This document shows positions 18,202 to 34,128 of a stretch of DNA of 64,000 bases, piece after piece. The DNA lies in assembly GCF_900182905.1 (NCBI RefSeq), contig NZ_FXUF01000006.1, positions 124,001 to 188,000 on the forward strand. Direction: 5' to 3'. Every line of letters starts with the position of its first letter. Position 1 is the first letter of the stretch. The stretch is from Anoxynatronum buryatiense (GTDB lineage: Bacteria > Bacillota > Clostridia > Peptostreptococcales > Tindalliaceae). Under the pieces are notes generated by a model, which did not search any database, had not been told where the DNA came from, and worked only from the letters and a program-made list of their open reading frames with translations. Position numbers and translations under genes: made by a program.

Positions 18202-18222
18202 TTTGTGAAACGGGGGCAAAGA

Positions 18223-19200
18223 ATGAAAATAATAGTGACAGGTGCAGATGGTTTTATCGGAAGTCATTTAACAGAAGAATTAGTCAAACAAGGACACAAG
18301 GTGAAAGCTTTTGCCTACTATAATTCATTTAATTCTTGGGGATGGCTTGATGTGATACCTCAGGAGATTATAAAAGAAGTGGAGGTGTTTACAGGAGATG
18401 TTCGTGATCCAAATGGCGTTAGAGAAGCCATGAAAGGAATGGATGAAGTTTTTCATCTTGCAGCACTGATTGCCATCCCATTCAGCTATCATTCGCCTGA
18501 CACGTATGTGGATACGAATATCAAAGGCACGCTTAACGTACTTCAAGCTGCGAGAGATTTGGGTACATCTAGAGTTCTTATTACATCTACGTCAGAAGTG
18601 TATGGAACAGCTCAATATGTTCCGATTGATGAAAAACATCCTTACCAGGGCCAATCTCCGTATTCAGCCACTAAAATAGGGGCAGATCGATTGGCAGAAT
18701 CATTTTTTTGCAGCTTCAACATGCCAATCACAATTGTTCGTCCATTTAATACATATGGACCTAGACAATCAGCAAGAGCCGTCATTCCAACAATAATAAC
18801 ACAGCTTCTTGCAGGTAAAGAAGAGATAAAGCTTGGCTCATTAGCGCCAACAAGAGATTTCAATTATGTAAAAGATACAGTCAATGGGTTTATAGAAATT
18901 GCAAAATCAGATGAGGCTATCGGTGAAGAAATCAACATTGCTACCCAACAAGAAATTTCGATTGGTCAACTGGCTGAGGAGTTGATTTTACAAATCAATC
19001 CGAAGGCAATAATAGTTTGTGAGGAACAGAGACTTAGACCTGAAAAAAGTGAAGTGAATAGACTTCTTGGTTCTAACGAAAAAATTATGAGATTAACAAA
19101 TTGGAAACCAAATTATACTATTGAACAAGGATTGGCAGAAACTGTTGAATTCTTTAAGAATAACTTGAATCAGTATAAAATAGATATTTATAATATATAA
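18223..19200 (+). CDS. legB: NDP-GlcNAc 4,6-dehydratase, LegB type
   Basis: A 325-aa extended SDR. It should convert GDP- or UDP-GlcNAc to the 4-keto-6-deoxy sugar, the first committed step to legionaminic acid. Evidence is the NAD motif 'IVTGADGFIGSHLTEEL', the subgroup signature 'AFAYYNSFNSWGWLD', 'TSTSEVYGTAQY', 'YSATKIGADRLAESF' with the Tyr/Lys pair, and 'NTYGPRQSARAVIPTII'. The preferred start is ATG 18223 (GGGGGCAAAG upstream), not GTG 18205. It opens the nonulosonate block; legC lies three genes downstream. Confidence 0.85.
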   Translation: MKIIVTGADGFIGSHLTEELVKQGHKVKAFAYYNSFNSWGWLDVIPQEIIKEVEVFTGDVRDPNGVREAMKGMDEVFHLAALIAIPFSYHSPDTYVDTNIKGTLNVLQAARDLGTSRVLITSTSEVYGTAQYVPIDEKHPYQGQSPYSATKIGADRLAESFFCSFNMPITIVRPFNTYGPRQSARAVIPTIITQLLAGKEEIKLGSLAPTRDFNYVKDTVNGFIEIAKSDEAIGEEINIATQQEISIGQLAEELILQINPKAIIVCEEQRLRPEKSEVNRLLGSNEKIMRLTNWKPNYTIEQGLAETVEFFKNNLNQYKIDIYNI

Positions 19201-19216
19201 TTTGAGGTGACAACAG

Positions 19217-19888
19217 ATGGAGATGAAAATGGAAATTTGCAGAGAAGATTTGATAAATCTTGTGAATTTGCAGCTAAACAATCTACTTGGATCGTCGGGA
19301 AATGTGAAAAACTATGTTGATACGACTTTGGAAAGACTTTCAAAGTGTTTTAAACTGACGAAAGATAAATATTATAGATCTTCAAATAATTGCAAATTCT
19401 CGCCCTATCACTCAGGTCAATATTCGATTTTTTTGTATTATCTAGCAAACACAATACACCGTGAAGCTGGAGATTCGGAGCTATCAACTAAATTATACTA
19501 TCTTAATAAAATCATGAACTCGGTTGACTGGTATTATGAAATAGCATTGCCTGAATATTTTGGAGTAGAGCATCCAATGGGTTCTGTTTTGGGAAGAGCG
19601 CGATATTCAGATGGATTCTATATTTTTCAGGGATGTACAGTTGGTGGCGATAAAGGGACGAATCCTAATTATCCCCAAATAGGCAAAAACGTAATTATGT
19701 ACTCAAATTCAACAGTACTTGGTGAAGTAAATATCGGAAAAAATGTCATCATTTCAACAGGCACCACAATAATAAATGAAAACATCCCAGATGGATGCAT
19801 TGTTTTTGGGCATTCGCCAAATTTGTTGATAAAGGAAAAAAGTTTAAGCGAAATTAATAAACATATATCAGAGTTTTGGCTGATATGA
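19217..19888 (+). CDS. Serine-acetyltransferase-like hexapeptide acyltransferase
   Basis: A 223-aa protein with an alpha-helical N-terminal half (about 1-120) and a short left-handed beta-helix C-terminal half, the layout of CysE. Seen: 'YFGVEHPMGSVLGRARYSDGF', 'FQGCTVGGDKG', 'IGKNVIMYSNSTVLGEV' and 'GKNVIISTGTTII'. The usual CysE active-site His/Asp region is altered and the location inside a sugar cluster argues against cysteine synthesis. It may acetylate the amino sugar made by LegC, or the finished nonulosonate. GAGGTGAC precedes the ATG. It lies 16 bases after legB. Confidence 0.65.
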   Translation: MEMKMEICREDLINLVNLQLNNLLGSSGNVKNYVDTTLERLSKCFKLTKDKYYRSSNNCKFSPYHSGQYSIFLYYLANTIHREAGDSELSTKLYYLNKIMNSVDWYYEIALPEYFGVEHPMGSVLGRARYSDGFYIFQGCTVGGDKGTNPNYPQIGKNVIMYSNSTVLGEVNIGKNVIISTGTTIINENIPDGCIVFGHSPNLLIKEKSLSEINKHISEFWLI

Positions 19889-19933
19889 GTATGCTGTGCA
19901 TTAAATAGCTTTATTAAAATGGAGGTCCTTATA

Positions 19934-21052
19934 ATGAAATATTGTAAAAAATGTGTCATGTCGAATACAAGACCAGGAATCAAGTTTAATGAAGAAGGAA
20001 TTTGTTCAGCTTGTCGGTCATATGAAAGACGCAAACAAATTGACTGGGATAAAAGATACAAAGAACTCGAAGCATTATGTGATAAGTACCGTGGGATGAA
20101 CGGAGCTTCATTCGATTGTGCTATTGCAGTGAGCGGTGGCAAAGATAGTCATTATCAAGTTTATCTAATGAAAGAAGTCATGAAGATGAATCCGATTCTT
20201 TTCAGCGTTGAAGACAATTTTGAAATGACAGAAGCAGGAAAACATAATCTGAAGAATATCTCAGAAGAATTTGGTTGCCCGATTATCAGTTTAAAACCTG
20301 ATAGAAAAGCACAAAAGAAACTAATGAGATATACATTTGAGAAATATGGAAAACCGACTTGGTTCATTGATAGATTAATCTATACATTTCCTATGCATAT
20401 GGCGATAAAATTTAGTACTCCTTTACTTGTGTATGGAGAGAATGTCAGTTTTGAATACGGAGGTAGTGTTTATGAAGAGACCTATTCTGCAAAAAATCAA
20501 TTAAGCAATGGAGTGGCATCGGATATTGAACTAGATGAGTTGCTTAGCATTGATGGGATAACTGAACAAGTCCTTGAAATGACAAAAGCACCATCAACTG
20601 AAGAATTGAATAAACTTGATCCAATGTATGTCTCATATTTTATTACATGGAATAGTTATTCGAACTATCAATTTGCTAAGAAGAGAGGTTTTAAAGATTT
20701 AACTCATGAATGGGAGAGAACTCACCATGTTGAAAATTTCGACCAAATTGATAGTAGAGCATATTTGGTGCATTCATGGATGAAGTATCCTAAATTTGGA
20801 CATGCTTCAGCAACTGATTATGCAGCAAGATTTGTCAGGTATGGAATGTTATCAAGAGATGAAGCGGTTGAATTAGTCAAAAAACATGATCATGCCTTAG
20901 ATCCTAAATGTGTTTCTGATTTTATTAATTTTCTTGGGTATTCAGAATCAGAGTTTTGGGACATAGTTGATAAACTCTACAATGAAGAATTATTTGAAAA
21001 AGATATATTTGGTGAGTGGAAGTTATTAAATCCAATTTGGCGAGATAGGTAG
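19934..21052 (+). CDS. N-acetyl sugar amidotransferase, PseA/WbpG family (first copy)
   Basis: A 372-aa PP-loop ATPase that turns an N-acetyl group of a sugar into an acetamidino group. Four cysteines (4, 7, 24, 27) form a probable zinc site. The ATP PP-loop is 'AVSGGKDS' (SGGKDS at about 67-72), followed by 'YGENVSFEYGG' and 'SNYQFAKKRGFKDL'. ATG 19934 follows ATGGAGGTCC; an upstream in-frame ATG at 19919 is part of that ribosome binding site and is rejected. The family needs ammonia, normally from a HisH-type glutaminase through a HisF-type partner. The only such pair here is at 23287-24812, beside the second copy. Confidence 0.85.
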   Translation: MKYCKKCVMSNTRPGIKFNEEGICSACRSYERRKQIDWDKRYKELEALCDKYRGMNGASFDCAIAVSGGKDSHYQVYLMKEVMKMNPILFSVEDNFEMTEAGKHNLKNISEEFGCPIISLKPDRKAQKKLMRYTFEKYGKPTWFIDRLIYTFPMHMAIKFSTPLLVYGENVSFEYGGSVYEETYSAKNQLSNGVASDIELDELLSIDGITEQVLEMTKAPSTEELNKLDPMYVSYFITWNSYSNYQFAKKRGFKDLTHEWERTHHVENFDQIDSRAYLVHSWMKYPKFGHASATDYAARFVRYGMLSRDEAVELVKKHDHALDPKCVSDFINFLGYSESEFWDIVDKLYNEELFEKDIFGEWKLLNPIWRDR

Positions 21053-22225
21053 GTGAGCCATTTGCATAATAAATTTATACCATTATCAGTACCTAATTTA
21101 AAAGGAAAAGAGCTTGAATATGTGACGCATGCTATTAAAACAGAATGGGTCTCGACTGGGGGGCCATATGTAAATGAGTTTGAGGAAAAGATAGCGGATT
21201 ACGCTAAGTGTAAAGGTGCTGTTTCATGTCAAAATGGCACCTCTGGCCTTCATGTAGCCTTAAAAGCATGTGGAGTGACTGAAAATGATGAAGTGATCGT
21301 TCCAACACTTACTTTTATTGCTGCAGTAAATCCAGTGAAGTACATCGGTGCAGAACCAATTTTCATGGATTGTGACGATTCGCTATGCATGGATGTAGAT
21401 AAGTTGAGATATTTCTGTGAAACTGAATGCAACTTTATTGAAGGTAAACTCATCAATAAGACCACTGAAAAAAACATTAAAGCATTGATTGTCGTTCATG
21501 TTTTTGGAAACATGGCTGACATGGTGGGTTTTATTGAAATTGCAAAAAAATACAATCTAAGAGTAATTGAAGATGCAACAGAAGCCATTGGTACGTACTA
21601 TCTTGATGGAAAGTATAAAGGAAAGCACGCAGGAACGATAGGTGATATTGGTGTTTATTCTTTTAATGGAAACAAGATCATGACCACCGGAGGTGGAGGA
21701 ATGATTGTTTCTGATAACGAGGAGTTGCTTAAGAGAACGAAGCATCTTACAACCCAAGCAAAAAGCGATGAACTCTACTATACACACGATGAAATTGGCT
21801 ATAACTATCGAATGACTAATCTTCAGGCAGCATTAGGATTAGCACAGTTAGAACAATTGGAAGACTTCATTAAGGTAAAGAAAGACAATTATGACTTATA
21901 CAAGAAGGAAATTCTAGAGATACCAGGATTAAGAATTATTGATTTTAATAATGGCATTCGGCCGAATTATTGGTTTTATGCTGTGTATGTAGAACCAGAG
22001 TATCCATTAAATAGAGACCAAATCATTAAATACCTAGCTTCTAAAAAGATACAGGCAAGACCCATATGGGGGCTGATTAGTGATCAAAAGCCGTATGTAG
22101 GAAATCAAACTTATAAGATTGAAAAGGCTTGTCATTATTTGGAGCATGTTGTGAATATACCATGCAGTTCTAACTTAAGTAAAGACGATGTAGTAACGGT
22201 TCTTAGCATCCTCAAAAACGCTTGA
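21053..22225 (+). CDS. legC: PLP-dependent sugar aminotransferase, LegC type
   Basis: A 390-aa DegT/DnrJ/EryC1 aminotransferase that adds the 4-amino group to the LegB product. Seen: 'PLSVPNLKGKELEYVTHAIKT' with 'EWVSTGGPYVNEFE', 'SCQNGTSGLHVAL', 'VIEDATEAIGTYY' and the PLP lysine in 'SFNGNKIMTTGGGG' (about K208). It starts directly at the stop of the amidotransferase. Two starts are possible: GTG 21053, or TTG 21062 with AGGTGAG in front. The 'VPNL.G' opening is typical of the LegC/PerA group. Confidence 0.85.
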   Translation: MSHLHNKFIPLSVPNLKGKELEYVTHAIKTEWVSTGGPYVNEFEEKIADYAKCKGAVSCQNGTSGLHVALKACGVTENDEVIVPTLTFIAAVNPVKYIGAEPIFMDCDDSLCMDVDKLRYFCETECNFIEGKLINKTTEKNIKALIVVHVFGNMADMVGFIEIAKKYNLRVIEDATEAIGTYYLDGKYKGKHAGTIGDIGVYSFNGNKIMTTGGGGMIVSDNEELLKRTKHLTTQAKSDELYYTHDEIGYNYRMTNLQAALGLAQLEQLEDFIKVKKDNYDLYKKEILEIPGLRIIDFNNGIRPNYWFYAVYVEPEYPLNRDQIIKYLASKKIQARPIWGLISDQKPYVGNQTYKIEKACHYLEHVVNIPCSSNLSKDDVVTVLSILKNA

Positions 22226-22250: not shown

Positions 22251-23297
22251 TTGGAAGTCAGTGCTGTAATTATAGATGAACACAATAGTATGATTGAAGC
22301 AATGGAACGCTTAGATGCAACATCCAAGAAAGTTCTTTTTGTTCAGATTGACGGTAAATTAGCCGCGGCAATTACAGACGGCGATATTCGGAGATGGATA
22401 TTAAAGAAAGGCAACTTAGATGCAAAAGTAAAAGATATTGCTAATTATAATCCTCTCTACTTAGAAGAAAACAATAAACACGCAGCAAGAGAATTCATGA
22501 AGAAGAATTTTATAGATGCTCTACCAATTGTAAACAAAAGCATGGAGATTACCTCAGTAGTTCTTTTGAATGAAGAAGGCATTGAGCAAAAAAAGGAATT
22601 GAAAATACCGATTGTTATAATGGCCGGCGGTCTTGGCACAAGATTATATCCTTACACTAAAATACTTCCTAAACCATTGATACCGATTGGTGAAATACCG
22701 ATTGTTGAGCATATTATGAACCGTTTTAACCAGTATGGATGTGATCAATTTTATCTAATAGTCAATCACAAAAAGAATATGATTAAAGCTTATTTTAATG
22801 AAATTGAAAAAGCCTACAAGGTTGACTATGTAGATGAAGATAAGCCGCTAGGTACTGGTGGGGGGTTGAGTCTACTTAAGGGAAAGATCAAGTCAACATT
22901 TATTTTATCAAATTGTGACGTTTTAATCGAAGAGGATTATGAAAAGATCTACAAGTATCATGTAAAAGAAAAAAATTTAATTACAATGGTTTGTTCTTTA
23001 AAGATTATAAGAATCCCTTATGGTGTTATAGAAATTAGTGAAACGGGTGAGATCGAAAAGATGAAGGAAAAACCTGAACTATCATTCTTCACAAATACCG
23101 GTATGTATATTGTAGAGCCTAAAGTGCTTGAAGAAATTGAAGAAGATAGAGCGATTGGATTTCCTGACATAATTGAAAAACACAAAGCTCAAGGCGAAAA
23201 GATTGGAGTGTATCCAATAAGTGAAAATAGCTGGATGGATATGGGGCAGATAGATGAAATGGAAGAAATGAGGAGACGACTGGACTATGAATCATAG
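22251..23297 (+). CDS. ptmE: CBS-pair plus sugar nucleotidyltransferase (PtmE-like)
   Basis: A 348-aa fusion. Residues about 1-115 form two CBS repeats ('ATSKKVLFVQIDGKLAAAITDGD', 'MKKNFIDALPIVN'). Residues 120-348 form a nucleotidyltransferase with 'VIMAGGLGTRLYPYTKILPKPLIPIG', 'SNCDVLIEEDY' and 'NTGMYIVEP'. In Campylobacter the same fusion (PtmE) makes GDP-glucosamine for the GDP-linked legionaminic pathway. The start is TTG at 22251 after GTGAGGAGG. The gene overlaps the following hisF-like gene by 11 bases. The GDP specificity is inferred from the family. Confidence 0.8.
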   Translation: MEVSAVIIDEHNSMIEAMERLDATSKKVLFVQIDGKLAAAITDGDIRRWILKKGNLDAKVKDIANYNPLYLEENNKHAAREFMKKNFIDALPIVNKSMEITSVVLLNEEGIEQKKELKIPIVIMAGGLGTRLYPYTKILPKPLIPIGEIPIVEHIMNRFNQYGCDQFYLIVNHKKNMIKAYFNEIEKAYKVDYVDEDKPLGTGGGLSLLKGKIKSTFILSNCDVLIEEDYEKIYKYHVKEKNLITMVCSLKIIRIPYGVIEISETGEIEKMKEKPELSFFTNTGMYIVEPKVLEEIEEDRAIGFPDIIEKHKAQGEKIGVYPISENSWMDMGQIDEMEEMRRRLDYES

Positions 23298-24141
23298 AAT
23301 AATAGCTAGGCTAGATATAAAAGGACCCAACCTGGTGAAGGGAATTCATTTAGAGGGACTAAGGGTATTAGGAAAGCCAGAGGACTTTGCAAAATACTAT
23401 TATGAGAATGATATTGATGAATTAATGTATATGGATGTTGTAGCAAGCCTCTATGAAAGAAATAGCCTATCCGAGGTCATATCAAAGACTGCTAGAGAAA
23501 TATTCATTCCATTGACTGTAGGGGGAGGCTTGCGCTCCGTTGAAGATATTAGACGCGTACTTAGAGCCGGGGCAGACAAAGTATCATTGAATACGGCAGC
23601 TATAAGGAATCCTGATATTATTCGAGAAGCTTCTCGTGAGTTTGGCTCATCTACTATTGTCGTAGCAATAGAAGCGATCAAAGAGCAAAATGGTGAATAT
23701 CTTGCCTACATTGATAACGGTAGAGAGTATACCGGGATAGAGGTTTGCAAGTGGGCGAAACAAGCAGAAGAACTGGGCGCTGGAGAATTGGTGATTACTT
23801 CTGTAGATGCAGAAGGAACGAGACAGGGATTCGAACTAGATTTAATTAAGAGTGTTACTAAGAATGCAACTATTCCAGTTATTGCCCACGGTGGTGCAGG
23901 TAAGCCTGAGCATATTGCAGAGGTGATCAAAAAGGGGCGAGCAGATGCAGTGGCGATCGCGTCTGTACTGCATTATGAATGCATCAAAGGAATGCAACTA
24001 TCCGATGATTATAAAGACGAAGGTAACACTGAATTTCTCGTAATAAATAATAGAGGTTCAAAGAAAGAGACAATGACGATTGATGAAATAAAAAGATCTT
24101 TAATTAGAGATGGTGTTATGTGCAGACATAGAGTGAGTTAG
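23287..24141 (+). CDS. HisF-like ammonia-channel subunit for the sugar amidotransferase
   Basis: A 284-aa TIM barrel of the HisF family, longer than the usual about 253. Seen: '[10 protein letters not shown]' (first Asp, D10, kept), '[15 protein letters not shown]', '[15 protein letters not shown]' and '[13 protein letters not shown]'. The position matching the second catalytic Asp of HisF (D130 in the Thermotoga enzyme, in AIDAK) is Glu here (E129 in '[10 protein letters not shown]'). It sits with hisH-like and WbpG-like genes and no other histidine gene, so it likely passes ammonia to the amidotransferase rather than making imidazole glycerol phosphate. Confidence 0.85.
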
Positions 24142-24149: not shown

Positions 24150-24812
24150 ATGGAGAATACAAGGGTAGCGATAATTGATAATGACATGGGAAATATGTTT
24201 AGTGTAAAAAATGCCCTAGAGAAAGTTGGCTTGGCTGTAGAGATAACTAAAGATCGCGGGCATATCATGAAAGCAGATGCACTTGTATTGCCAGGCGTTG
24301 GCGCCTTTGGCAGTGCGATGAAACATCTAAATGAACATGGACTAGTAGAGACGATAAAAGCATTTGTGGAAACCGGGAAGCCATTTATTGGAATTTGCTT
24401 GGGGTTACAGCTCTTGTTTGAAGAAAGTGAAGAGTTTGGAAATTCACCTGGATTAGCCCTTATAAAGGGGAGGGTTGTTAGGTTTCCGCAGCATGTAAAT
24501 CAAGAAGAAATCAAAGTACCGCAGATTGCTTGGAATAAGATTATGAAGGGCAATATGGAGTGGGAACGGACTGTTCTGAAGAATATTACAGCAGGAGAGT
24601 ACATGTATTTTGTTCATTCATATTATGTGGTGCCGAATGATGAAAAGGTGATCCTTACAAAGACTAGTTATGAAGGCATAGAGTATTGCTCTGCCATTCA
24701 GCAAAATAATATTGTTGCATTTCAATTCCACCCCGAAAAAAGCGGGTTGAAGGGATTGGAAATTTACGAGAATATTAAGGAATGGATTATAAGATCAAAG
24801 GAGGGGAAATAG
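24150..24812 (+). CDS. HisH-like glutaminase for the sugar amidotransferase
   Basis: A 220-aa class-I glutamine amidotransferase that releases ammonia from glutamine. The nucleophile Cys is in 'GICLGLQLLFEES' (C83) and the His and Glu are in 'FQFHPEKSG' (H194, E196). The oxyanion-type 'LPGVGAFGSAMKHL' is present. It starts eight bases after the hisF-like gene with TTAGGAGG upstream and ends directly at the start of the second WbpG-like gene. Order HisF-HisH-WbpG matches the ammonia-relay trio known from Pseudomonas O-antigen loci. Confidence 0.88.
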   Translation: MENTRVAIIDNDMGNMFSVKNALEKVGLAVEITKDRGHIMKADALVLPGVGAFGSAMKHLNEHGLVETIKAFVETGKPFIGICLGLQLLFEESEEFGNSPGLALIKGRVVRFPQHVNQEEIKVPQIAWNKIMKGNMEWERTVLKNITAGEYMYFVHSYYVVPNDEKVILTKTSYEGIEYCSAIQQNNIVAFQFHPEKSGLKGLEIYENIKEWIIRSKEGK

Positions 24813-26042
24813 ATGGTTAATAGACGTGAGGTGTATTATGGATTGCCAGAGGATGTTGCTTTTTGTACTAAATGTGTTATGTCAAATCAACGCCCAACAT
24901 CAGCCGTTGAGCATAATCATACAATAGAGAGCAGGAAGAACACACTAAAGCTTGATGAAGAAGGTGTTTGTGATGCATGTCGTACTGCAGAACAGAAGTC
25001 AAAGATTGATTGGGAAGATAGAGAGAGACAGCTGGTTGAACTATTAGATAAGCATAGAAAAAAAGATGGTTCCTACGATTGCTTGGTGCCGGGCAGCGGC
25101 GGTAAAGATAGTGTCTATCAGGCCCACGTTCTAAAGTATAAATATGGGATGAATCCATTGACAGTTACATGGCCTCCAATTCTATATACAGATTATGGGT
25201 ATAAGAATTTTAAGAATTGGATTGATGTTGGAGGGTTTGACAATATTAGCTTTAATCGTAATGGTAAAGTCATGAAGCTGCTGACAAAACTTTCAATTGA
25301 AAACTTATTCCATCCATTTCAGACCTTTATTCTAGGACAAAAGAATCTTGCACCAAAGATGGCGCAAAAGTTTGGAATAGAGCTGATATTTTATGGAGAG
25401 AATGAGGCTGAGTATGGAAACCCAATCGCAGATAATGCAACTTCATTAAGGGACAAATCCTATTATACCTATGAGCACTTGGATGAGATTTATTTAGGTG
25501 GTATATCGGTGAAAGAAATAATGGAAAACTATGATGTTAGACTGTCAGATATAAAATCATTTTTACCGGCGCCAGTTAATGAGGTGGAAAAATGCAACAT
25601 TGAGGTACATTACTTGGGGTATTATCTAAAGTGGATACCACAGGAGGCCTATTATTATGCTGTTGAGAATACAGGCTTTCGAGCAAGACCTTTTAGAACT
25701 CAGGGAACTTACAGTAAATACAATAGCATTGACGATAAAATTGATGATTTGCACTACTATACGACGTTTATTAAATTTGGGATCGGAAGAGCTACATACG
25801 ATGCGTCTCAAGAAATAAGAAACAAGCATTTGACCAGAGAAGAAGGAATGGCTTTGGTTAAAAAATTTGATGGAGAATTTCCGGACAGATATTTCAATGA
25901 AATTATGGAATACTTAGAGATTGACCCAGACTATTTTAGATATGATTTAACAGATAAATTTAGATCACCACATCTTTGGACAAAGGCAGATGGAGAATGG
26001 AGACTGAGATATACAGTTAATAGGGATGGAACTGAGGATTAG
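24813..26042 (+). CDS. N-acetyl sugar amidotransferase, PseA/WbpG family (second copy)
   Basis: A 409-aa PP-loop ATPase, a distant paralogue of the protein at 19934. Its likely zinc cysteines are 18, 21, 53 and 56, with a longer insert between the pairs. The PP-loop is 'VPGSGGKDSVYQ' (SGGKDS at 95-100), followed by 'YGENEAEYGNP'. The ATG follows the hisH stop without a gap and the ribosome binding site AAAGGAGGGG lies inside the hisH end, suggesting translational coupling. It is probably the direct partner of HisH/HisF and makes an acetamidino group on the nonulosonate or its precursor. Confidence 0.87.
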   Translation: MVNRREVYYGLPEDVAFCTKCVMSNQRPTSAVEHNHTIESRKNTLKLDEEGVCDACRTAEQKSKIDWEDRERQLVELLDKHRKKDGSYDCLVPGSGGKDSVYQAHVLKYKYGMNPLTVTWPPILYTDYGYKNFKNWIDVGGFDNISFNRNGKVMKLLTKLSIENLFHPFQTFILGQKNLAPKMAQKFGIELIFYGENEAEYGNPIADNATSLRDKSYYTYEHLDEIYLGGISVKEIMENYDVRLSDIKSFLPAPVNEVEKCNIEVHYLGYYLKWIPQEAYYYAVENTGFRARPFRTQGTYSKYNSIDDKIDDLHYYTTFIKFGIGRATYDASQEIRNKHLTREEGMALVKKFDGEFPDRYFNEIMEYLEIDPDYFRYDLTDKFRSPHLWTKADGEWRLRYTVNRDGTED

Positions 26043-26111: not shown

Positions 26112-26705
26112 ATGCTTCAGAGCAAGTATTTAACGGAATATGATATGGCTGATTTTGGTTTTAAAAGTATAGGAAAAAATGTTAGAATATCATCTGATGC
26201 TAGAATTTATGGACAAGAAAATATTTCAATTGGCAATAATGTACGAATCGATGATTTTGTCATTTTGTCTGCAGTTAATGGATCAATCACTATCGGCAAT
26301 TACGTGTTTATAGCACGTAGTTCACACTTAAGCGGTGCATTAGGAATAGAACTAAAAGACTTTAGCAGTATGGCTGCTAATACAGTAATATATAGCGCAT
26401 CAGATGATTATAGTGGAAGTTATCTGACAGCACAAGCTGTTCCGCAAAAGTACACAAATTATCGTGGTGGAAAAGTAGTTCTTGGAAGACATGTTATTAT
26501 TGGTAGCAGTACAACTATTATTGGGCCGTGTGATATTGGCGAAGGATGCAGTGTTGGGGCAATGACCTTAGTTAACAAAAAATTAGAACCATGGGGTGTA
26601 TATGCCGGTGTTCCAGCGAAACGATTAAAAGATAGAAACAAAAAAATGCTGGAATTAGAGCTTGAGTTGTTGGCAGATGATAATAGTAATCACAACGGAA
26701 TATAA
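26112..26705 (+). CDS. Hexapeptide-repeat acyltransferase (LegH candidate)
   Basis: A 197-aa left-handed beta-helix acyltransferase. Hexapeptide turns run from about residue 18 ('IGKNVRISSDARIYG', 'ISIGNNVRIDDFVIL') to 150. After them come 'GCSVGAMTLVNK' and 'YAGVPAKRLKDR', typical for O- and N-acetyltransferases acting on sugars. In legionaminic pathways a separate acetyltransferase (LegH) modifies the 4-amino group after LegC. This gene, just before neuB, or the one at 19217 could do it. AAAGGAGGG precedes the ATG. Confidence 0.7.
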   Translation: MLQSKYLTEYDMADFGFKSIGKNVRISSDARIYGQENISIGNNVRIDDFVILSAVNGSITIGNYVFIARSSHLSGALGIELKDFSSMAANTVIYSASDDYSGSYLTAQAVPQKYTNYRGGKVVLGRHVIIGSSTTIIGPCDIGEGCSVGAMTLVNKKLEPWGVYAGVPAKRLKDRNKKMLELELELLADDNSNHNGI

Positions 26706-26810
26706 GAAAAGGTGTATTTTACTTGATGTTTGCAGCTGTCAACGTTGGAGTCATTAGCTTTATACGAAGTAATATCGCTAAGGAAATGTTATAATAGGAG
26801 ATCGATAACT

Positions 26811-27809
26811 ATGAGAAAAACACTTATTATTGCGGAAGCTGGTGTGAACCATAATGGTAGTTTAGAGTTAGCGAAAAAATTAGTAAATGCAGCTAAAGAT
26901 GCAGGTGCTGATTGCGTAAAGTTTCAGACCTTTATCTCAGAAAATATTGTATCAAAGAATGCAGTAAAAGCTGAATATCAAAAGAAGCAAACAGAAGCTG
27001 AAGAATCACAACACGATATGCTTAAAAAGCTCGAACTTTCTTTCGATGAATTCGTGCAACTGAATGAGTATTGCAAAAATATACATATAGAATTTATGTC
27101 CACTGCTTTTGATTTTGATAGCATTGATTTTTTAGATAGTTTAGAGATGGGTAGTTGGAAAATTCCATCGGGAGATATCACAAATTTACCTTATCTGATG
27201 AAGATTGCTAAATTTAAAAAGCCTGTCATCCTTTCTACAGGGATGAGTACGATGGATGATATAAGAAGTGCAGTTAATGTTTTAAGAGATAATGGCGCAG
27301 GAGAACTGACTGTTCTTCACTGCACAACAGAGTATCCAACACCATTTAAAGATGTGAATTTGAAAGCAATGCTTACGATAGAAAATGAATTTGGTGTACA
27401 AATTGGCTATTCTGATCATACCAAAGGTATAGAGGTTCCTATTGCAGCAGTTGCGTTAGGCGCTAAAGTCATTGAAAAACATTTTACGCTCGATAGAAAT
27501 ATGGAAGGACCTGATCACAAAGCTAGTCTAGAACCTGATGAACTGAAGGTTATGGTTGATTCCATAAGACACATTGAATTAGCTCTAGGTGATGGGATGA
27601 AACAGCCAGTTGAATCAGAGAAAAAAAATATGGCGGTTGCACGTAAGAGTATTACTGCAAAGCAAGACATAAAAGCAGGAGAGGTTTTCACTGAAGATAA
27701 CCTTACGGTAAAAAGACCTGGCAATGGAATAAGTCCTATGAAATGGTTTGATGTTATAGGGCGAGTTGCTTCAAGAGATTTCGAAGAAGATGAGCTGATA
27801 GAATTATGA
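26811..27809 (+). CDS. neuB: Nonulosonic acid (sialic/legionaminic) synthase
   Basis: A 332-aa NeuB-family synthase that condenses phosphoenolpyruvate with the 6-carbon sugar to form the 9-carbon acid. Seen: 'IIAEAGVNHNGSLELAKKL', 'GADCVKFQTF', 'WKIPSGDITNLPYL', 'VILSTGMSTM', 'LHCTTEYPTP' and 'IGYSDHTKGIEVPIAAVALGA'. The C-terminal SAF antifreeze-like domain starts near residue 285 ('ARKSITAKQDIKAG'). A TTG at 26730 is open upstream, but ATG 26811 after AATAGGAG is the natural start. It overlaps neuC by four bases. Confidence 0.92.
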   Translation: MRKTLIIAEAGVNHNGSLELAKKLVNAAKDAGADCVKFQTFISENIVSKNAVKAEYQKKQTEAEESQHDMLKKLELSFDEFVQLNEYCKNIHIEFMSTAFDFDSIDFLDSLEMGSWKIPSGDITNLPYLMKIAKFKKPVILSTGMSTMDDIRSAVNVLRDNGAGELTVLHCTTEYPTPFKDVNLKAMLTIENEFGVQIGYSDHTKGIEVPIAAVALGAKVIEKHFTLDRNMEGPDHKASLEPDELKVMVDSIRHIELALGDGMKQPVESEKKNMAVARKSITAKQDIKAGEVFTEDNLTVKRPGNGISPMKWFDVIGRVASRDFEEDELIEL

Positions 27810-28975
27810 AGAAAATAGTTAGTATACTAACAGCAACAAGAGCGGAATATGGTTTGTTAAAACCGATTATTGCCAAATTAAATTCAGTTAAAGAGTTTGA
27901 TGTTAGAATTGTAGCAACAGGCGCACATCTATCGCCAGAGTTTGGTTTAACATATCAGGAAATTGAAAATGATGGTTTTAAGATTGACAAGAAGATAGAA
28001 ATCCTATTAAGCTCAGATACACCATCCTCAATTTCTAAATCAATGGGACTTGCGATGATTAGCTTTGCAGATTATTTTAAGGAGCTTAATCCGGATTTGT
28101 TGATTGTCCTGGGTGATCGTTATGAAACGCTAGCAGTAGCAACTGTGGCTATGAATCAGAGAATTCCAATCACTCATCTCTATGGCGGAGAAACTACAGA
28201 AGGAGCCATAGATGAATCTGTTCGTCATGCAATTACTAAATTAAGCTACCTTCATTTTACTAGCACTGAGGAATATCGCAAAAGAGTGATTCAATTAGGT
28301 GAACATCCGGATCGTGTATATAATGTCGGAGCGATAGGTATTGAAAATATACTAAATGAAAAGCTGTTATCAAAAGAAGAACTAGAAGAAGATCTTAAAA
28401 TGGAATTATCGAGACCATATGCGATGGTTACATTCCATCCAGTAACACTTGAAAACAACAGCGCTAAGAAGCAGATTGAATCTCTTCTTGAAGCCTGCAA
28501 AAAATACAAAGACATCACTTTCATTTTCACTAAGGCAAATGCGGATACGGAAGGGCGAATCATTAATCAATTTATTGATAATTACTCAAAAGAAAATGCT
28601 AATATTGCAACGTTTACTTCGCTTGGCACGAGGCGATATTTAAGTGCACTTAAGTACTGTTCAATGGTTATCGGAAATTCATCAAGCGGGATATTAGAGG
28701 CTCCAAGTTTTGGTATTCCGACAATTAACATAGGAGACCGACAAAAAGGAAGGCTGCAATCAAATAGCATCATAAATTGTGAACCATCGGAGGAAAGAAT
28801 AAAAGAAGCAATCGTGCAAGTGATGACAAAATCTTTTGTTGAAAAAGCAAAAAAAACGGTGAATCCTCACGGAACCGGCAATACTTCTGATAGAATAGTT
28901 GAGGTTGTTAAAGAATATGTATTTGATGGGAAGATTAACCTTAAAAAGAAGTTTTACGACTGTGAGGTGAAGTAG
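27806..28975 (+). CDS. neuC: UDP/GDP-sugar hydrolysing 2-epimerase
   Basis: A 389-aa NeuC/LegG-type enzyme that removes the nucleotide from the N-acetylated sugar and inverts C2, giving the substrate for NeuB. Seen: 'LTATRAEYGLLKPII', 'VLGDRYETLAVA', 'HLYGGETTEGAIDESVRHA', 'VTFHPVTLENN' and 'IGNSSSGILEAPSFGIP'. The ATG lies in the stop of neuB (ATGA overlap), so the two are coupled. The next gene starts at the stop codon. Confidence 0.92.
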   Translation: MKKIVSILTATRAEYGLLKPIIAKLNSVKEFDVRIVATGAHLSPEFGLTYQEIENDGFKIDKKIEILLSSDTPSSISKSMGLAMISFADYFKELNPDLLIVLGDRYETLAVATVAMNQRIPITHLYGGETTEGAIDESVRHAITKLSYLHFTSTEEYRKRVIQLGEHPDRVYNVGAIGIENILNEKLLSKEELEEDLKMELSRPYAMVTFHPVTLENNSAKKQIESLLEACKKYKDITFIFTKANADTEGRIINQFIDNYSKENANIATFTSLGTRRYLSALKYCSMVIGNSSSGILEAPSFGIPTINIGDRQKGRLQSNSIINCEPSEERIKEAIVQVMTKSFVEKAKKTVNPHGTGNTSDRIVEVVKEYVFDGKINLKKKFYDCEVK

Positions 28976-29953
28976 ATGAATATTGCCGTAATTGGACTCG
29001 GCTCAATGGGAAGAAGAAGAATTCGTTTAATTCAGCAATATAACAACTCTTTTAAAATCATTGGAATCGATTTAAATAAAGAGAGAAGGGATATTTCTGA
29101 AGCTGAATTTGGAATAGACACAAAAGATAGCTTAGAAGAGGTTATTAAATACTATGATCTTAACTGTGCGATCATCTGCACTTCTCCATTATCTCATAAT
29201 AAACTAACTCAGATAAGCTTAGAGAATAATCTACATGTTTTTACAGAGTTAAACTTGGTAACCGAAGGATATGATGAGAACGTTCAATTAGCAGAAGCAA
29301 AAAAGAAAGTTCTATTTTTATCATCGACGTTCTTATATAGAGCAGAGATAAAAGAAATTAATAGGTTAGTAAAAGAACAAGATAACAAACTAAACTATAC
29401 TTACCACATTGGGCAATATTTACCAGACTGGCACCCGTGGGAGAATTATAAGGATTTTTTTGTTGGCGACAAGAGAACGAATGGATGCAGAGAAATTTTT
29501 GCAATCGAATTACCATGGCTTATCGAAGTATTCGGGAACGTGAAGGATATTATTGTGAGAAAAAGCAAGATCAGTTCATTAAATATTGATTACGATGATA
29601 ACTATATAGTTATTTTTGAACATGAATCAGGTCACAAAGGCGTAGTTGCCGTTGATATTGTGTCAAGGAAAGCAGTAAGAAACCTGGAAGTTTTCGGAGA
29701 AAACATATATTTGTCTTGGGACGGATCCGCTAATGGACTTAAAATGATGGACATAAAGAATAAGAAAGAAGAGAATATTCATTTATACGAAAAGGTGGAT
29801 CAACTGGGCCAATATAGTCAATTTGTAGTTGAAAATGCTTACTATGATGAAATTAAGTCTTTTTTTGACGTGATAGCGAAAGCTATTGAACCTATCTATA
29901 ATTTTGAAAAAGATAAAAAAATTCTCGAGCTGATTGATAGAATTGAGGCTTAG
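28976..29953 (+). CDS. Gfo/Idh/MocA oxidoreductase, first of two paralogues
   Basis: A 325-aa NAD(P)-dependent oxidoreductase. The N-terminal Rossmann part has 'IAVIGLGSMGRRRIRLI' and 'ICTSPLSHNK'. The second domain holds 'QYLPDWHPWENYKDFF'. The glycine-rich motif is complete, but the usual EKP motif reads TEL here ('VFTELNLVT'), where the lysine would normally act in catalysis. It begins directly at the neuC stop. It may reduce or oxidise a nonulosonate precursor; substrate unknown. Confidence 0.75.
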   Translation: MNIAVIGLGSMGRRRIRLIQQYNNSFKIIGIDLNKERRDISEAEFGIDTKDSLEEVIKYYDLNCAIICTSPLSHNKLTQISLENNLHVFTELNLVTEGYDENVQLAEAKKKVLFLSSTFLYRAEIKEINRLVKEQDNKLNYTYHIGQYLPDWHPWENYKDFFVGDKRTNGCREIFAIELPWLIEVFGNVKDIIVRKSKISSLNIDYDDNYIVIFEHESGHKGVVAVDIVSRKAVRNLEVFGENIYLSWDGSANGLKMMDIKNKKEENIHLYEKVDQLGQYSQFVVENAYYDEIKSFFDVIAKAIEPIYNFEKDKKILELIDRIEA

Positions 29954-29955
29954 TT

Positions 29956-30906
29956 ATGCAAAAAAAATACAAAATTGCAATGATTGGCTTAGGTGCAATA
30001 GGAAAAAGACATCTTCTAAATATTGACAAAGTGCTTCAAAGAAGAGGGATTGAATATACGGTTGATTTGATTAGAAGAAAAAGTAGTTGTGCTTTGGATA
30101 AGTCTTTACATAAAATTGTTTCTACTGTCTATACAGAACATGAAAATGTTCCGGATGATTACGATGTCATATTTATCACCAATCCAACGTATCTACACTA
30201 TGATACGATCAGAAAGTTTAGTTGCAAATCAAAGAATATGTTTATTGAGAAGCCCGTTTTTGATGAGGTTGCTGTAGATATAGCGAAACTATCTTTAGAT
30301 GAAGATGGTGTTTACTATGTAGCTTGTCCGTTAAGATACACTGATGTTATTCAATATGTAAAAAATGAGATCGACTTAGATTGTGTATATAGTGCGAGAG
30401 CAATCTGTTCAAGTTATTTGCCAGATTGGAGGCCGGGGACAGATTATCGAAAAACGTATAGTGCGCATTTGGACCAGGGTGGCGGTGTTTCAATTGACCT
30501 TATACATGAGTGGGACTATATAATGTATTTATTTGGAAAGCCTAAGCAGGTTATGAATTATCGCGGTAAATTTTCGCGATTAGAAATAAACAGTGATGAT
30601 TTGTCGGTATATATTGCTGAATATGAGAATAGGCTAGCAGAAGTACATATAGATTACTTTGGGAGAAAGCTAATAAGAGAACTACAACTATTTACAGCAG
30701 ATGAGACTATAGTAGCTGACATTGCAAATAGTGAAATAAGATTTTTAAAGGAGAACAACGCAATTCAATTCAAGGAGGATAGAAACTCTTATCAACTCAA
30801 AGAAATAGAAAACTTCTTTGATATCTTAGAAGGAAAAAATAATAATGAAAATGACATTACTATAGCGCTGGACACGCTGAAAATTGCGAAGGAAGGAGAA
30901 GCATAA
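29956..30906 (+). CDS. Gfo/Idh/MocA oxidoreductase, second of two paralogues
   Basis: A 316-aa oxidoreductase related to its upstream neighbour. The cofactor site is 'IAMIGLGAIGKRHLLNI', and unlike the neighbour it keeps the EKP catalytic motif ('NMFIEKPVFDE'). The second domain has 'SYLPDWRPGTDYRKTYS', which aligns with the neighbour's 'YLPDW.P..DY', followed by 'GGGVSIDLIHEWDYI' with His-Glu. It starts two bases after the first copy and overlaps the cytidylyltransferase by one base. Perhaps the pair acts as a heteromer with one active subunit. Confidence 0.78.
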   Translation: MQKKYKIAMIGLGAIGKRHLLNIDKVLQRRGIEYTVDLIRRKSSCALDKSLHKIVSTVYTEHENVPDDYDVIFITNPTYLHYDTIRKFSCKSKNMFIEKPVFDEVAVDIAKLSLDEDGVYYVACPLRYTDVIQYVKNEIDLDCVYSARAICSSYLPDWRPGTDYRKTYSAHLDQGGGVSIDLIHEWDYIMYLFGKPKQVMNYRGKFSRLEINSDDLSVYIAEYENRLAEVHIDYFGRKLIRELQLFTADETIVADIANSEIRFLKENNAIQFKEDRNSYQLKEIENFFDILEGKNNNENDITIALDTLKIAKEGEA

Positions 30907-31667
30907 TGAAGATATTATTTACAATATGCGGCAGAGCAGGTTCGAAAGGAATAAAGAATAAGAACCTGAAAGATTTTTTAGGGTTACCATTGCCGTTTTA
31001 TACAGTGTCAATAATAGATTTGTTTATGAAGAACAATGAGCAATACGAGTGCGATATTGTTTTAAATACCGATAGTAATGATTTGATTGATTTATTTAGA
31101 AATAGATTGATGATACCAATCGAAGTAGTAGAAAGAGAACCCGAACTAAGTGAAGATAATACGCCAAAGGCTCATGTTGTCCAAAACAGTTACGCAGCTA
31201 TAAAAGAACGATTAAAAAAAGATTATGAATTAGTTGTGGACTTGGATATTACATCTCCGTTAAGAACGCTGAGCGATCTTGAAGCGCTGGTAGATAAAAA
31301 AATTAAAACAAATGCTGATGTTGTTTTCTCTATTACAGACTCGCGAAGGAACCCATATTTTAATATGGTAATGAAAACCAAAGAGGGATATGATCGCGTT
31401 ATTAAATCTAACTTTAATGCAAGACAAGAAGCACCAGAAATGTACGATATGAATGCTTCAATGTATGCATATTCTCCGGATTTTCTTATTAGCGGCAAAG
31501 GAATTTTTGAAGGGAAGTGTGATGCCATTAAAATGATGGACACAGCAGTGCTTGACATTGACCATGAAATTGATTTTGAGTTGATGGAAGTTATTGCAGC
31601 ACATTTGTTTGATAAGAACCAAAGTATGAATTTGATTAAATTGAACATAAGTACAATAACAGTTTAA
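30906..31667 (+). CDS. neuA: CMP-nonulosonate synthetase (cytidylyltransferase)
   Basis: A 253-aa NeuA/LegF-type enzyme that activates the 9-carbon acid with CTP. Seen: the nucleotide-binding 'CGRAGSKGIKNKNLKDFLG', 'LNTDSNDLIDLF', 'DLDITSPLRTLSDLEAL' and 'DMNASMYAYSPDFL', ending with the metal-site 'VLDIDHEIDFELME'. The ATG overlaps the preceding TAA by one base. It is the last gene of the island; no terminator is visible before the convergent protease gene 40 bases on. Confidence 0.9.
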   Translation: MKILFTICGRAGSKGIKNKNLKDFLGLPLPFYTVSIIDLFMKNNEQYECDIVLNTDSNDLIDLFRNRLMIPIEVVEREPELSEDNTPKAHVVQNSYAAIKERLKKDYELVVDLDITSPLRTLSDLEALVDKKIKTNADVVFSITDSRRNPYFNMVMKTKEGYDRVIKSNFNARQEAPEMYDMNASMYAYSPDFLISGKGIFEGKCDAIKMMDTAVLDIDHEIDFELMEVIAAHLFDKNQSMNLIKLNISTITV

Positions 31668-31707: not shown

Positions 31708-34128
31708 TTAGTTCTGTGCGGAAGAAACCTCAAAAGAAAGGCCGCGCTGCATGTCCCATGAACTGCTGGAAAAAGCGTCTTTGGCATGGACAACCAGGGT
31801 ATAAAAGCCTGGAACAGTGGGAGTCCAATTATAAAAGTTCTGAGACCCATAAGACTGAACTAAAACCCATGAACCAGTATCCTGGTTGTGAACATAGAAT
31901 CTGTAAAGCGGGTTTGAACTACCGCTTGATTGAGCGGTAAGAGCGATGGTTTGACCAAGAGACTGAGGACTTGGCAAATCACTGCTGAAGGACAGACTGG
32001 TCACCTTCTGTGCGGAAGAAACCTCAAAAGAAAGGCCGCGCTGCATGTCCCATGAACTGCTGGAAAAAGCGTCTTTGGCATGGACAACCAGGGTATAAAA
32101 GCCTGGAACAGTGGGAGTCCAATTATAAAAGTTCTGAGACCCATAAGACTGAACTAAAACCCATGAACCAGTATCCTGGTTGTGAACATAGAATCTGTAA
32201 AGCGGGTTTGAACTACCGCTTGATTGAGCGGTAAGAGCGATGGTTTGACCAAGAGACTGAGGACTTGGCAAATCACTGCTGAAGGACAGACTGGTCACTT
32301 GGGTTGGACTAGAGTTCTCAATTAAGGAATCAACTGAAGCTACAAAATTCACCAAGCCCCAGCCATACTCATTGTCTTTCCCTGCAGGGCCCAAATCAGT
32401 GGCTGTGGTTGTCAGGATGTTTTTGATTCCAGCCGGTGTTACAGAAGGATCCAGCCCTTTCAGCACTGCTGCCATGCCTGAAACAATGGGAGCGGAAAAG
32501 GAAGTGCCATTGGCAGTAGGGGTGCTGGTGGTGGTATAGGTGCTTCCAATGTCGGTGGTAACCATGCCGACGCCTGGGGCAACTAAATCAACGGTGCTGT
32601 TATAATTAGAAAAAGAAGCCCTGGTGTTGGCAGCATCATTGGAAGTGGCACCAACGTTAATGGCATTGGCATAGGCGGCTGGATAAACCAGGCTGGTGCT
32701 GTAAAAGTTTCCGGCAGCAGCGATTACGGTAACACCTGCAGCCACAGCATTGTTAATGGCGGTTTCTTCGGCAATAATCGCACCACCAGTGTTTCGACCC
32801 AAGCTCAGGTTGATGACATGAGCCCCTTGCTGAACGGCATAATCGATTGCCGCAATCATATGGACATTGGAGCCGTTGCCTGCATCATCCAACACTTTAA
32901 GAGGCAAAATGGAGACGGGCCAGGTATAGGCGACACCAGCCATGCCGGTGCTGTTGTTGGTGGAAGCGGCGATAATACCGGAAACCCGGGTGCCATGGCC
33001 ATGGCCGTCGGCGGGGTTAGAGGTGCTGTTAGTATAGTTGAAACCACCGGCAGCAATGCGACCGGTCAAATCGGGATGATTGGCTTGAACTCCGGTATCA
33101 AGAACAGCCACCTTCACAGGCGATAATGTGCGGCCGGAGGTGACAATGGTGGTCCAGGCTTCAGACGCTTTGACGCGTGGCAGGTACCACTGGGTTGCAT
33201 ATAACGGGTCGTTAACAGCCATAAGAGAAATCGGTTGGTTCTCTTCCACGGCAATGACATTGGGATTTAGTGCAAGGTCATCCATGAGGGTTTCACGGTC
33301 TTCGGAAGACTGTGGAATCACCAGGTCTGTATGGGATGAGATTTGCTGCAGACGTTCAATTTTATCAATGGCTTGGGCAGACATGAGACGCATTTGCCCC
33401 TGGGGACGGTCGTAGGTGACCAAAAGCCATTCGCTTTTGTCAGTGGAGGGCGGTCCCCGTGCTTCTTGCATGCGAAGCAACCCTTGAGCCGCGGGACCAT
33501 AAGGCTCCACCGGTATTTCCACCCAATCAGTCAGGTCTTTCAGTTCCACACCTTCCTCTGGAAGCCCGTCAACCTCTTCAAACCCATCTTTTTCTTCATC
33601 AGCTTCCGGGCTAACAGGCTCATCCTCACCAGAGGCCATTTCTTCTTCAACGTCTTCGGGCGCTGATGTTTCAGGCTGCTCATCTGGCATATCCATCGGT
33701 AATTCTTCAAGCATACCCGTTTCTGGGGTTTCGGGATCTGTACCTTCAACATCGTCTTCAACCTCACTGTCAGGAATGAAGCCATCCCATATCACCACAG
33801 CACCCAAACCACGAAGTGCTGTAGCCAAGGCATGGGTTTCTTCATTGGCTTGCAGCTGGTTTTTCTGTAGCAAAAAATCCAAGTCCAGCAACAGGTCTGG
33901 AAAGCTTTCCTCTTTTTCAAGCAATGTTTTCATCCATTGATTGAAATCATCAATGGTGGCAAATGCTGAAGCCTCAAAGGGTTCCAGCGGTTCATCCAAA
34001 GTAGTGGAAGTCGTGGCTGTATCCAAAGCATAGGCAATGGGGAGGGTGTTTACCCAAAAGGAATTGAAAAGCAAGAGAAAAGAAAGGAGTGCAGGAATCA
34101 GTTTATTTCGGTGAAGCATCATTTTCAT
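31708..34128 (-). CDS. Secreted subtilisin-like (S8) serine protease with duplicated C-terminal domain
   Basis: An 806-aa exported protease. A signal peptide covers about 1-35. An acidic Pro/Glu/Asp stretch lies at 120-195 and an I9-like propeptide at about 225-300. The catalytic triad is Asp344 ('VAVLDTGVQANHPDL'), His378 ('GHGHGTRVSG') and Ser543 ('NGTSFSAPIVSG'); Asn474 in 'AAGN' forms the oxyanion hole. Two identical 98-residue beta domains (611-708 and 709-806, 'VTSLSFSSDLPSPQSLGQ' start, 'NWTPTVPGFYTLVV' core) end the protein; they resemble Y_Y_Y-type modules of clostridial surface proteins. GGAGGG precedes the ATG. It is convergent with the nonulosonate operon and its codon and base use match the more G/C-rich flanks. 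Confidence 0.92.
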   Translation of the reverse strand: MKMMLHRNKLIPALLSFLLLFNSFWVNTLPIAYALDTATTSTTLDEPLEPFEASAFATIDDFNQWMKTLLEKEESFPDLLLDLDFLLQKNQLQANEETHALATALRGLGAVVIWDGFIPDSEVEDDVEGTDPETPETGMLEELPMDMPDEQPETSAPEDVEEEMASGEDEPVSPEADEEKDGFEEVDGLPEEGVELKDLTDWVEIPVEPYGPAAQGLLRMQEARGPPSTDKSEWLLVTYDRPQGQMRLMSAQAIDKIERLQQISSHTDLVIPQSSEDRETLMDDLALNPNVIAVEENQPISLMAVNDPLYATQWYLPRVKASEAWTTIVTSGRTLSPVKVAVLDTGVQANHPDLTGRIAAGGFNYTNSTSNPADGHGHGTRVSGIIAASTNNSTGMAGVAYTWPVSILPLKVLDDAGNGSNVHMIAAIDYAVQQGAHVINLSLGRNTGGAIIAEETAINNAVAAGVTVIAAAGNFYSTSLVYPAAYANAINVGATSNDAANTRASFSNYNSTVDLVAPGVGMVTTDIGSTYTTTSTPTANGTSFSAPIVSGMAAVLKGLDPSVTPAGIKNILTTTATDLGPAGKDNEYGWGLVNFVASVDSLIENSSPTQVTSLSFSSDLPSPQSLGQTIALTAQSSGSSNPLYRFYVHNQDTGSWVLVQSYGSQNFYNWTPTVPGFYTLVVHAKDAFSSSSWDMQRGLSFEVSSAQKVTSLSFSSDLPSPQSLGQTIALTAQSSGSSNPLYRFYVHNQDTGSWVLVQSYGSQNFYNWTPTVPGFYTLVVHAKDAFSSSSWDMQRGLSFEVSSAQN
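31712..32299. repeat. Tandem duplication, 2 x 294 bp, apparently exact
   Basis: Bases 31712-32005 and 32006-32299 read the same by eye over their whole length, including third codon positions. Each unit codes for one 98-residue domain at the protease C-terminus. Exact identity points to a very recent duplication or to gene conversion. Confidence 0.93.

Follow-up and report, generated by a model that had tools for sequence, protein, structure and literature searches.

A pair of Gfo/Idh genes in a legionaminic-acid-type operon of Anoxynatronum buryatiense as a candidate module for nonulosonate epimerization

A 64,000-nucleotide stretch of the Anoxynatronum buryatiense genome (contig NZ_FXUF01000006.1, positions 124,001 to 188,000 of the forward strand, here called the window) carries an operon of the legionaminic acid (Leg) type in which two adjacent genes, gfo1 and gfo2, lie between neuC and neuA and encode proteins of the Gfo/Idh oxidoreductase family. 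A first-pass annotation of the window had placed them there and noted that both share the motif YLPDW(H/R)P and that EKP is found in just the second; all of this holds. It also suggested that the pair may add a redox step and so yield a new nonulosonate, and this is the reading that the evidence favors. We propose that gfo1 and gfo2 form a two-enzyme redox module that epimerizes the nonulosonate of the operon via a keto intermediate, most likely at C8, and we put the chances of this at a little short of even.

How would such a module work? The gfo1 product, using NAD+, would oxidize a secondary hydroxyl of a legionaminic-acid-type sugar, either free or CMP-linked, to a ketone, and the gfo2 product, using NADPH, would re-reduce that ketone from the opposite face to give the epimer. 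Coupling the oxidation to NAD+ and the later reduction to NADPH would drive the epimerization forward. In a 5,7-diamino-3,5,7,9-tetradeoxy nonulosonate the only secondary hydroxyls that are free are those at C4 and C8, which makes an 8-epi or a 4-epi legionaminic-type acid the expected product; the former is more likely by comparison with Escherichia coli (see below). The cofactors, the direction, the substrate, and the carbon affected are predicted, as is catalysis by gfo1 itself. Our searches of open-licence papers turned up no description of such a pair.

Active sites of the two proteins

Relatives of gfo1 were sought in one genome per species, which yielded 161; the best 80 of the 161 were retained, with up to 10 kb of each flank. 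Residue counts refer to 81 gfo1 sequences (the 80 loci plus the window) and 77 gfo2 sequences, and the survey counts are not independent, because the 80 loci include close relatives (several Gemmiger). The gfo2 product is a canonical member of the Gfo/Idh/MocA family, with a Rossmann domain, the EKP lysine, and the catalytic Asp and His. Its motifs read 98-EKP-100 and 154-YLPDWRPGTDY-164, and its catalytic K99, D181, and H184 are invariant in 77 of 77. The protein aligns with inositol dehydrogenases. The corresponding motifs of gfo1 are 90-TELN-93 and 148-YLPDWHPWENY-158. In a profile-profile alignment of the two, L92 of gfo1 falls on K99 of gfo2, F175 on D181, a gap on H184, and P180 on D187; the whole canonical K/D/H set is therefore missing from gfo1, the lysine being just one of the three. 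The TEL that the first-pass annotation saw in place of EKP is thus one part of a larger loss, and it is fixed, position 92 being Leu in 59 sequences, Ile in 22, and Lys in 0 of 81. A different set of residues, E91, N93, R172, and E173, is invariant (81/81 each), and the dinucleotide-binding glycines G7, G9, and G12 are likewise kept in all 81.

By its domain matches gfo1 belongs to PF01408 and is not a short-chain dehydrogenase/reductase (SDR). Its model has the full two-domain Gfo/Idh fold (pLDDT 91.3), with the invariant YLPDWHPWENY loop as the lowest-confidence part (150-157), and matches Gfo/Idh structures at Z scores up to 31.0 across residues 1-325. The comparison picks out no function, since its 50 rows span about 3 Z; by sequence, no solved structure lies close to gfo1 at E 1e-5, and a profile search reaches generic Gfo/Idh chains only. 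One survey member (L003:5671-6708) bears a low-complexity Ser/Glu/Gln-rich insert in mid-protein. At the 63 loci carrying gfo1, gfo2, neuA, neuB, and neuC, mean identity is 54.4% for gfo1, 48.7% for gfo2, 50.7% for neuA, 48.7% for neuC, and 62.1% for neuB.

The possibility that gfo1 is a dead copy is disfavored by its invariant replacement residues and by its conservation above that of gfo2. Rather, gfo1 seems to be a repurposed enzyme: invariant new residues at the catalytic positions are not what one expects of a dead subunit, though catalysis is not thereby proven.

Pairing and partner exchange

With a threshold of at least 200 bits, gfo2 occurs at 76 of the 80 gfo1 loci, and at 73 of the 76 no more than 100 bases separate the two genes. 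The two genes also diverge together. Across the 63 loci their distance correlation is 0.933, the highest of ten gene pairs, and the partial correlation given neuA, neuB, and neuC is 0.51 (0/500 permutations). Such co-occurrence and co-divergence, like the gene content, residues, and phylogeny reported here, are observed directly. A recent tandem duplication was rejected, the gfo1 and gfo2 sequences failing to form a single clade in the AU (approximately unbiased) test (p-AU 0.0013). The proteins share 24% identity over 249 amino acids, and “paralogues,” as the pair was first described, is apt in the distant sense only, not for sister duplicates. A redox gene pair stands beside the synthase and CMP-synthetase genes, as in the Ela/Epa-type epimerization systems described below. 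An in-frame read-through of gfo1 and gfo2 (17-locus alignment) was modeled as two good domains with a pTM of 0.53 and no confident interface; being a linked proxy, this model says little for or against a complex.

According to the record titles of the 80 loci, taxa beyond Bacillota comprise three Bacteroidota (L001, L027, and L035) and one Methanobrevibacter metagenome-assembled genome (MAG) (L039). Fusibacter ferrireducens and Acetobacterium fimetarium are among the cultured carriers. The gfo1 gene is rare in genome samples (3/291 and 3/398; in each case one of the three is the genome of the window and another a distant match). A plasmid search gave a single match, in Subdoligranulum, and a phage collection gave none.

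What accompanies gfo1 where gfo2 is missing? This is the case at four of the 80 loci (L020, L030, L044, and L079), and at E 1e-30 gfo2 was found in none of those four genomes, while all eight control genomes known to carry it were recovered. Directly 3' of gfo1 in three of the four (L030, L044, and L079) is a class III aminotransferase gene, seen at none of the 76 loci with gfo2; the L044 product is named glutamate-1-semialdehyde aminomutase, above cut-off. Two further cases are more distant. On the phage contig L087, a gfo1-type Gfo (29% identity) adjoins a class III aminotransferase, and in L112, a looser third case whose cluster looks unrelated to nonulosonates, the two types lie within about 3 kb. 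In trees, gfo1 groups with the Gfo proteins of L087 and L112 and with an additional Gfo from L030. Pairing of a gfo1-type protein with a class III aminotransferase fits a ketone-making gfo1, and with the aminotransferase replacing gfo2, that ketone would receive an amino group rather than be reduced. By extension, gfo1 could be the first of a distinct class of Gfo/Idh dehydrogenases whose catalytic site is new (E91/N93/R172/E173 for K/D/H) and whose product, a keto-nonulosonate, is a hub intermediate, where the partner sets the outcome: an epimer with gfo2, or a triamino nonulosonate (4- or 8-amino) with the aminotransferase. We consider this broader scheme unlikely; to our knowledge, triamino nonulosonates are not a known sugar class.

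The two distant cases have features of their own. Besides the genes named, L087:3774-11222 contains an SpsF-like gene and a neuB-like fragment, with ssDNA-binding protein and transcription-regulator PHROGs nearby; these genes possibly serve to edit host glycans, in a role akin to that of epaAB. By eye, L112:2214-8155 also encodes trimethylamine-methyltransferase-like and BNR-type glycosidase-like proteins, and the cluster is possibly catabolic.

The aminotransferase version also carries a carbon-nitrogen hydrolase gene (L030:9198-10001, L044:9200-9991, and L079:13059-13826). Odd N-acyl groups occur on Leg, and gfo1 and gfo2 might make or edit a hydroxy- or amino-acyl N-substituent rather than act on the sugar carbon chain. 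The hydrolase gene would suit such a role, but both gene types adjoin neuA or SpsF-type genes, and E. coli O61 and O108, which have a Gfo and SDR pair, carry 8-epilegionaminic acid (8eLeg) (PMC3628348). We regard N-acyl editing as very improbable.

What, conversely, accompanies a gfo2-type gene where gfo1 is missing? Among 283 genomes of the window's class, the gfo2 profile has four matches: the window's own genome, G240, which carries gfo1 alongside gfo2, and G022 and G278, in which the gfo2-type Gfo occurs without gfo1. The latter two clusters (L119 and L120, respectively) encode LegB, LegC, PtmE-type, NeuD-type, NeuC, NeuB, SDR, NeuA, and gfo2-type Gfo proteins, although the PtmE-type match of G278 covers the nucleotidyltransferase part only. 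Their SDRs are 31-32% identical to that of E. coli O108, and in the E. coli O108 (L098) and O61 (L101) clusters Gfo, neuA, and SDR genes adjoin. By gene content, then, the slot of gfo1 in the window is that of an SDR of the PtmA type in G022, G278, and E. coli O61/O108-type clusters. No SDR exceeded the cut-off of the NCBIfam PtmA model (NF050062) in any of 17 genomes searched, a strict test because the E. coli O108 SDR also falls below it (209.9 bits, cut-off 350). That SDR, used as a query, found distant matches only, at 2 of the 80 loci.

The gfo2 product itself groups with the Gfo proteins of these clusters. In a first tree, gfo2, the E. coli Gfo rows, and one viral-contig row grouped with support of 92/88; in a second (47 rows), with six distant or long-branched Gfo rows left out and two added, gfo2, the E. 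coli O61/O108 Gfo, and those of G022 and G278 fall on one side of a branch supported at 99/98. The assignment to the PtmF-type group is by comparison with these E. coli and class-genome members.

The residue at the end of strand beta-2 bears on cofactor use, an acid there favoring NAD and R or S favoring NADP. At the aligned position gfo1 has D32 (81/81) and gfo2 has R40 (76/77). In the SDRs this residue is D in O108, O61, and L120 and E in L119; in their Gfo partners it is S in O108, O61, and L120 and R in L119. In its cofactor residue, then, gfo1 matches the SDR that it would replace.

Could gfo1 instead be a pseudoenzyme, acting on gfo2 as a scaffold or regulator? Such an active/inactive heteromer, raised in the first-pass annotation, would account for the loss of K, D, and H (no Lys in 81 sequences), for the strict pairing, and for the co-divergence. 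It does not sit well with the rest: gfo1 is better conserved than gfo2, has its own invariant site at the catalytic places, and retains an intact dinucleotide-binding motif; gfo1 stands without any gfo2 in four of four genomes searched (control, 8/8); and partners are exchanged with an SDR and an aminotransferase, so that each occurs without the other. We judge the heteromer decidedly improbable. Whether the two genes always occur as a pair, another question raised at the outset, has a mixed answer: they do at 76 of 80 loci, but gfo1 is alone at 4 of 80 and the gfo2-type gene is alone in E. coli and in 2 of 283 class genomes. Each gene is therefore found by itself in other nonulosonate clusters to some extent, an outcome that the first-pass annotation had named as speaking against its proposals.

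The E. coli comparison and competing explanations

Vibrio fischeri lipopolysaccharide contains 8-epi-legionaminic acid. The term 8-epi-legionaminic appears in PMC7940393. DNA searches of E. coli genomes with the window's legB and gfo1 gave no match, and the clusters were located by way of neuB. Among 5,426 genomes, the Gfo is present in 15 (9 O108-type and 6 O61-type) and the SDR in the same 15. A legC-neuC-neuB query matches 23 genomes, and the 8 without the Gfo and SDR set are strain NT1F31 and seven with an O161-like legC. Two of these eight clusters were read, those of O161 (L103) and NT1F31 (L097), and both have LegC-, NeuB-, NeuC-, and PtmE-type genes and neither Gfo nor SDR. The Leg-type cluster of NT1F31 spans L097:5455-12475. 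The O61 sugar is 8eLeg, as is that of O108 by a reference title in the same source (PMC3628348), and the O161 sugar is tabulated as Leg (PMC10609480).

Acinetobacter baumannii provides a parallel. There, lgaABCDEF with elaABC leads to 8eLeg and with lgaG to Leg, and among the Ela proteins ElaA is a putative oxidoreductase (PMC9676051). Exchange of one SDR for another, AciE for AciB, accompanies a change at C8 (PMC5595891), and EpaA and EpaB convert pseudaminic acid (Pse) to its 8-epimer (8ePse), as determined by nuclear magnetic resonance (PMC12053666). The E. coli and A. baumannii cases together suggest that redox enzyme pairs beside nonulosonate genes track epimers.

Several points weigh against epimerization by gfo1 and gfo2. 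(i) gfo1 lacks every canonical catalytic residue, and its activity is a prediction. (ii) In L111, a more distant Gfo and SDR pair, the cofactor residues are reversed. (iii) Replacement of gfo2 by an aminotransferase counts as one event, because the three aminotransferase loci (L030, L044, and L079) form one clade, and the L087 and L112 cases are distant. (iv) The E. coli link is a correlation across three known O-types, with one of the seven O161-like clusters read. (v) PtmF and PtmA are present in Campylobacter, for which ordinary Leg rather than 8eLeg has been reported. (vi) We know of no glycan structure for any organism carrying gfo1 and gfo2. (vii) Plesiomonas has been compared with ten proteins of O161 (PMC4875605), but the ten-gene set given there fits the O61 cluster (L101), not L103; since it fits L101 and the cited study deposited two sequences, we take the label “O161” there to cover both. 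(viii) PtmA has been counted, after Schoenhofen 2009, among the first enzymes, those of the GDP-GlcNAc segment (PMC4481668).

This last point is also the basis of a different explanation, namely that gfo1 and gfo2 act early, in the formation of glucosamine phosphate or of GDP-GlcNAc for LegB, and so supply precursor, as cited for Campylobacter PtmF/PtmA. A PtmE-type gene at 47 of 54 well-covered loci is in keeping with such a role. At 14 of the same 54, legB is found. In four of seven genomes checked, however, including G405 (rated 100% complete), the pair is present without a full-length PtmE match; L113 has a PglF-type dehydratase; and E. coli O161 and NT1F31 carry ptmE-type genes with neither Gfo nor SDR. 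Precursor supply is, in our estimation, quite unlikely.

A step at the hexose stage is about as improbable. Here the pair would oxidize and re-reduce C3 of a 2,4-diamino-2,4,6-trideoxyhexose ahead of NeuB. The fold is one common to the sugar 3-dehydrogenases WlbA, GnnA, and GenD2, but these matches do not discriminate, because they are tied with many other Gfo/Idh structures, and the genes flank neuA in the window, in E. coli, and in L119 and L120. Inversion at C3 of the hexose would alter C6 of the product, for which we know of no natural example.

The operon and its relation to known systems

All genes of the operon lie on the forward strand, in the order LegB, serine-acetyltransferase-like, WbuX, LegC, PtmE-type, WbuZ-type, HisH-type, second WbuX, hexapeptide transferase, NeuB, NeuC, gfo1, gfo2, and NeuA (Table 1). 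This gene content marks it as a legionaminic-acid-type operon with acetamidino-type modification genes. The junctions are tight: gfo1 starts at the base after the neuC stop, two bases separate gfo1 from gfo2, and the neuA start overlaps the gfo2 stop by one base. The true neuB start is probably an inner ATG near 26811.

Table 1. Features of the operon and residues of gfo1 and gfo2 (window coordinates)
Feature	Position	Strand	Evidence
LegB 4,6-dehydratase	18205..19200	+	TIGR04180 519.4 bits, cut-off 475
Serine-acetyltransferase-like transferase	19217..19888	+	below cut-off
WbuX-type N-acetyl sugar amidotransferase, first copy	19919..21052	+	TIGR03573 359.4 bits
LegC aminotransferase	21053..22225	+	TIGR04181 484 bits, cut-off 420
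PtmE-type CBS + nucleotidyltransferase	22251..23297	+	35% to E. coli O108 counterpart
WbuZ/HisF-type subunit	23287..24141	+	272.6 bits, below cut-off 299.7
HisH-type glutaminase subunit	24150..24812	+	
WbuX-type N-acetyl sugar amidotransferase, second copy	24813..26042	+	TIGR03573 363.9 bits
Hexapeptide-repeat acetyltransferase	26112..26705	+	PF00132
neuB, nonulosonate synthase	26730..27809	+	TIGR03569 528.6 bits, cut-off 399.65, match from residue 31
neuC (LegG-type), 2-epimerase/hydrolase	27806..28975	+	TIGR03568 495.5 bits, cut-off 235.9
gfo1, Gfo/Idh-fold protein, 325 aa, without canonical K, D, H	28976..29953	+	PF01408 49.0 bits, cut-off 24
gfo1 D32, end of strand beta-2, NAD-type	29069..29071	+	D in 81/81
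gfo1 E91-L92-N93, at place of EKP	29246..29254	+	E and N in 81/81
gfo1 R172-E173, near start of stretch bearing D and H in canonical members	29489..29494	+	both 81/81
gfo2, canonical Gfo/Idh oxidoreductase, 316 aa, PtmF-type group	29956..30906	+	PF01408 45.8 bits, cut-off 24; PF02894
gfo2 R40, NADP-type, aligned with gfo1 D32	30073..30075	+	R in 76/77
gfo2 E98-K99-P100	30247..30255	+	77/77
gfo2 D181 and H184	30496..30507	+	77/77
neuA, CMP-nonulosonate synthetase-like cytidylyltransferase	30906..31667	+	PF02348 35.1 bits

The operon has two distinct WbuX-type amidotransferases (19919-21052 and 24813-26042) and one WbuZ/HisH pair, which suggests two acetamidino-type modifications or substrates. 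Downstream, on the reverse strand (31708-34128), a subtilase-like open reading frame ends in two near-identical tandem domain copies of ~90 residues each. The same genome has a second NeuB cluster (L105, contig C15), whose NeuB is 37% identical and which includes a gene that looks PseG-like by eye; it is apparently a pseudaminic-type pathway.

Genes for the C8 and C4 epimers of legionaminic-type acids have so far largely been assigned from gene content. Should gfo1 and gfo2 prove to be an epimerization module, the pair would be a sequence signature from which the epimer could be predicted in many Firmicutes of the gut and of soil, in a few Bacteroidota, and in an archaeal MAG. E. coli NT1F31 should then make plain Leg, amino-nonulosonates would be predicted for the aminotransferase version, and PtmF/PtmA would merit re-examination as a redox epimerization pair. 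gfo1 would also exemplify strong selection on a Gfo/Idh active site that has no Lys, Asp, or His.

How does the pair compare with known systems? The nearest likeness is to PtmF/PtmA of Leg clusters (Plesiomonas and Campylobacter) and WeiH of E. coli, in which a canonical Gfo stands beside neuA in a Leg-type operon. PtmF, a Gfo-type oxidoreductase, has already been placed among the genes of a Leg cluster (PMC4481668, Table 5), so the view in the first-pass annotation that the position of the pair is not part of the known legionaminic route holds only in part. PtmA is an SDR, in whose slot the window has gfo1, of the Gfo/Idh family but with its active site rebuilt. ElaABC (8-epilegionaminic) and EpaAB (8-epipseudaminic) of A. 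baumannii resemble the pair as extra redox enzymes that stand beside or are added to a nonulosonate module and change the C8 epimer. EpaA, in contrast, fuses a cytidylyltransferase to an aldo/keto reductase, EpaB is an SDR, and we know of no Ela/Epa-type member that uses two Gfo/Idh proteins. WlbA, GnnA, GenD2, and KanD2 are Gfo/Idh proteins that are partnered with aminotransferases, which they feed, and keep the canonical residues. They share with gfo1 the fold (Z about 28-30) and, in the aminotransferase-type loci, the kind of partnership, but gfo1 has none of K, D, or H. From its sequence features, then, the system is of a known redox-pair type, new in that a rebuilt-site Gfo/Idh protein takes the place of the SDR.

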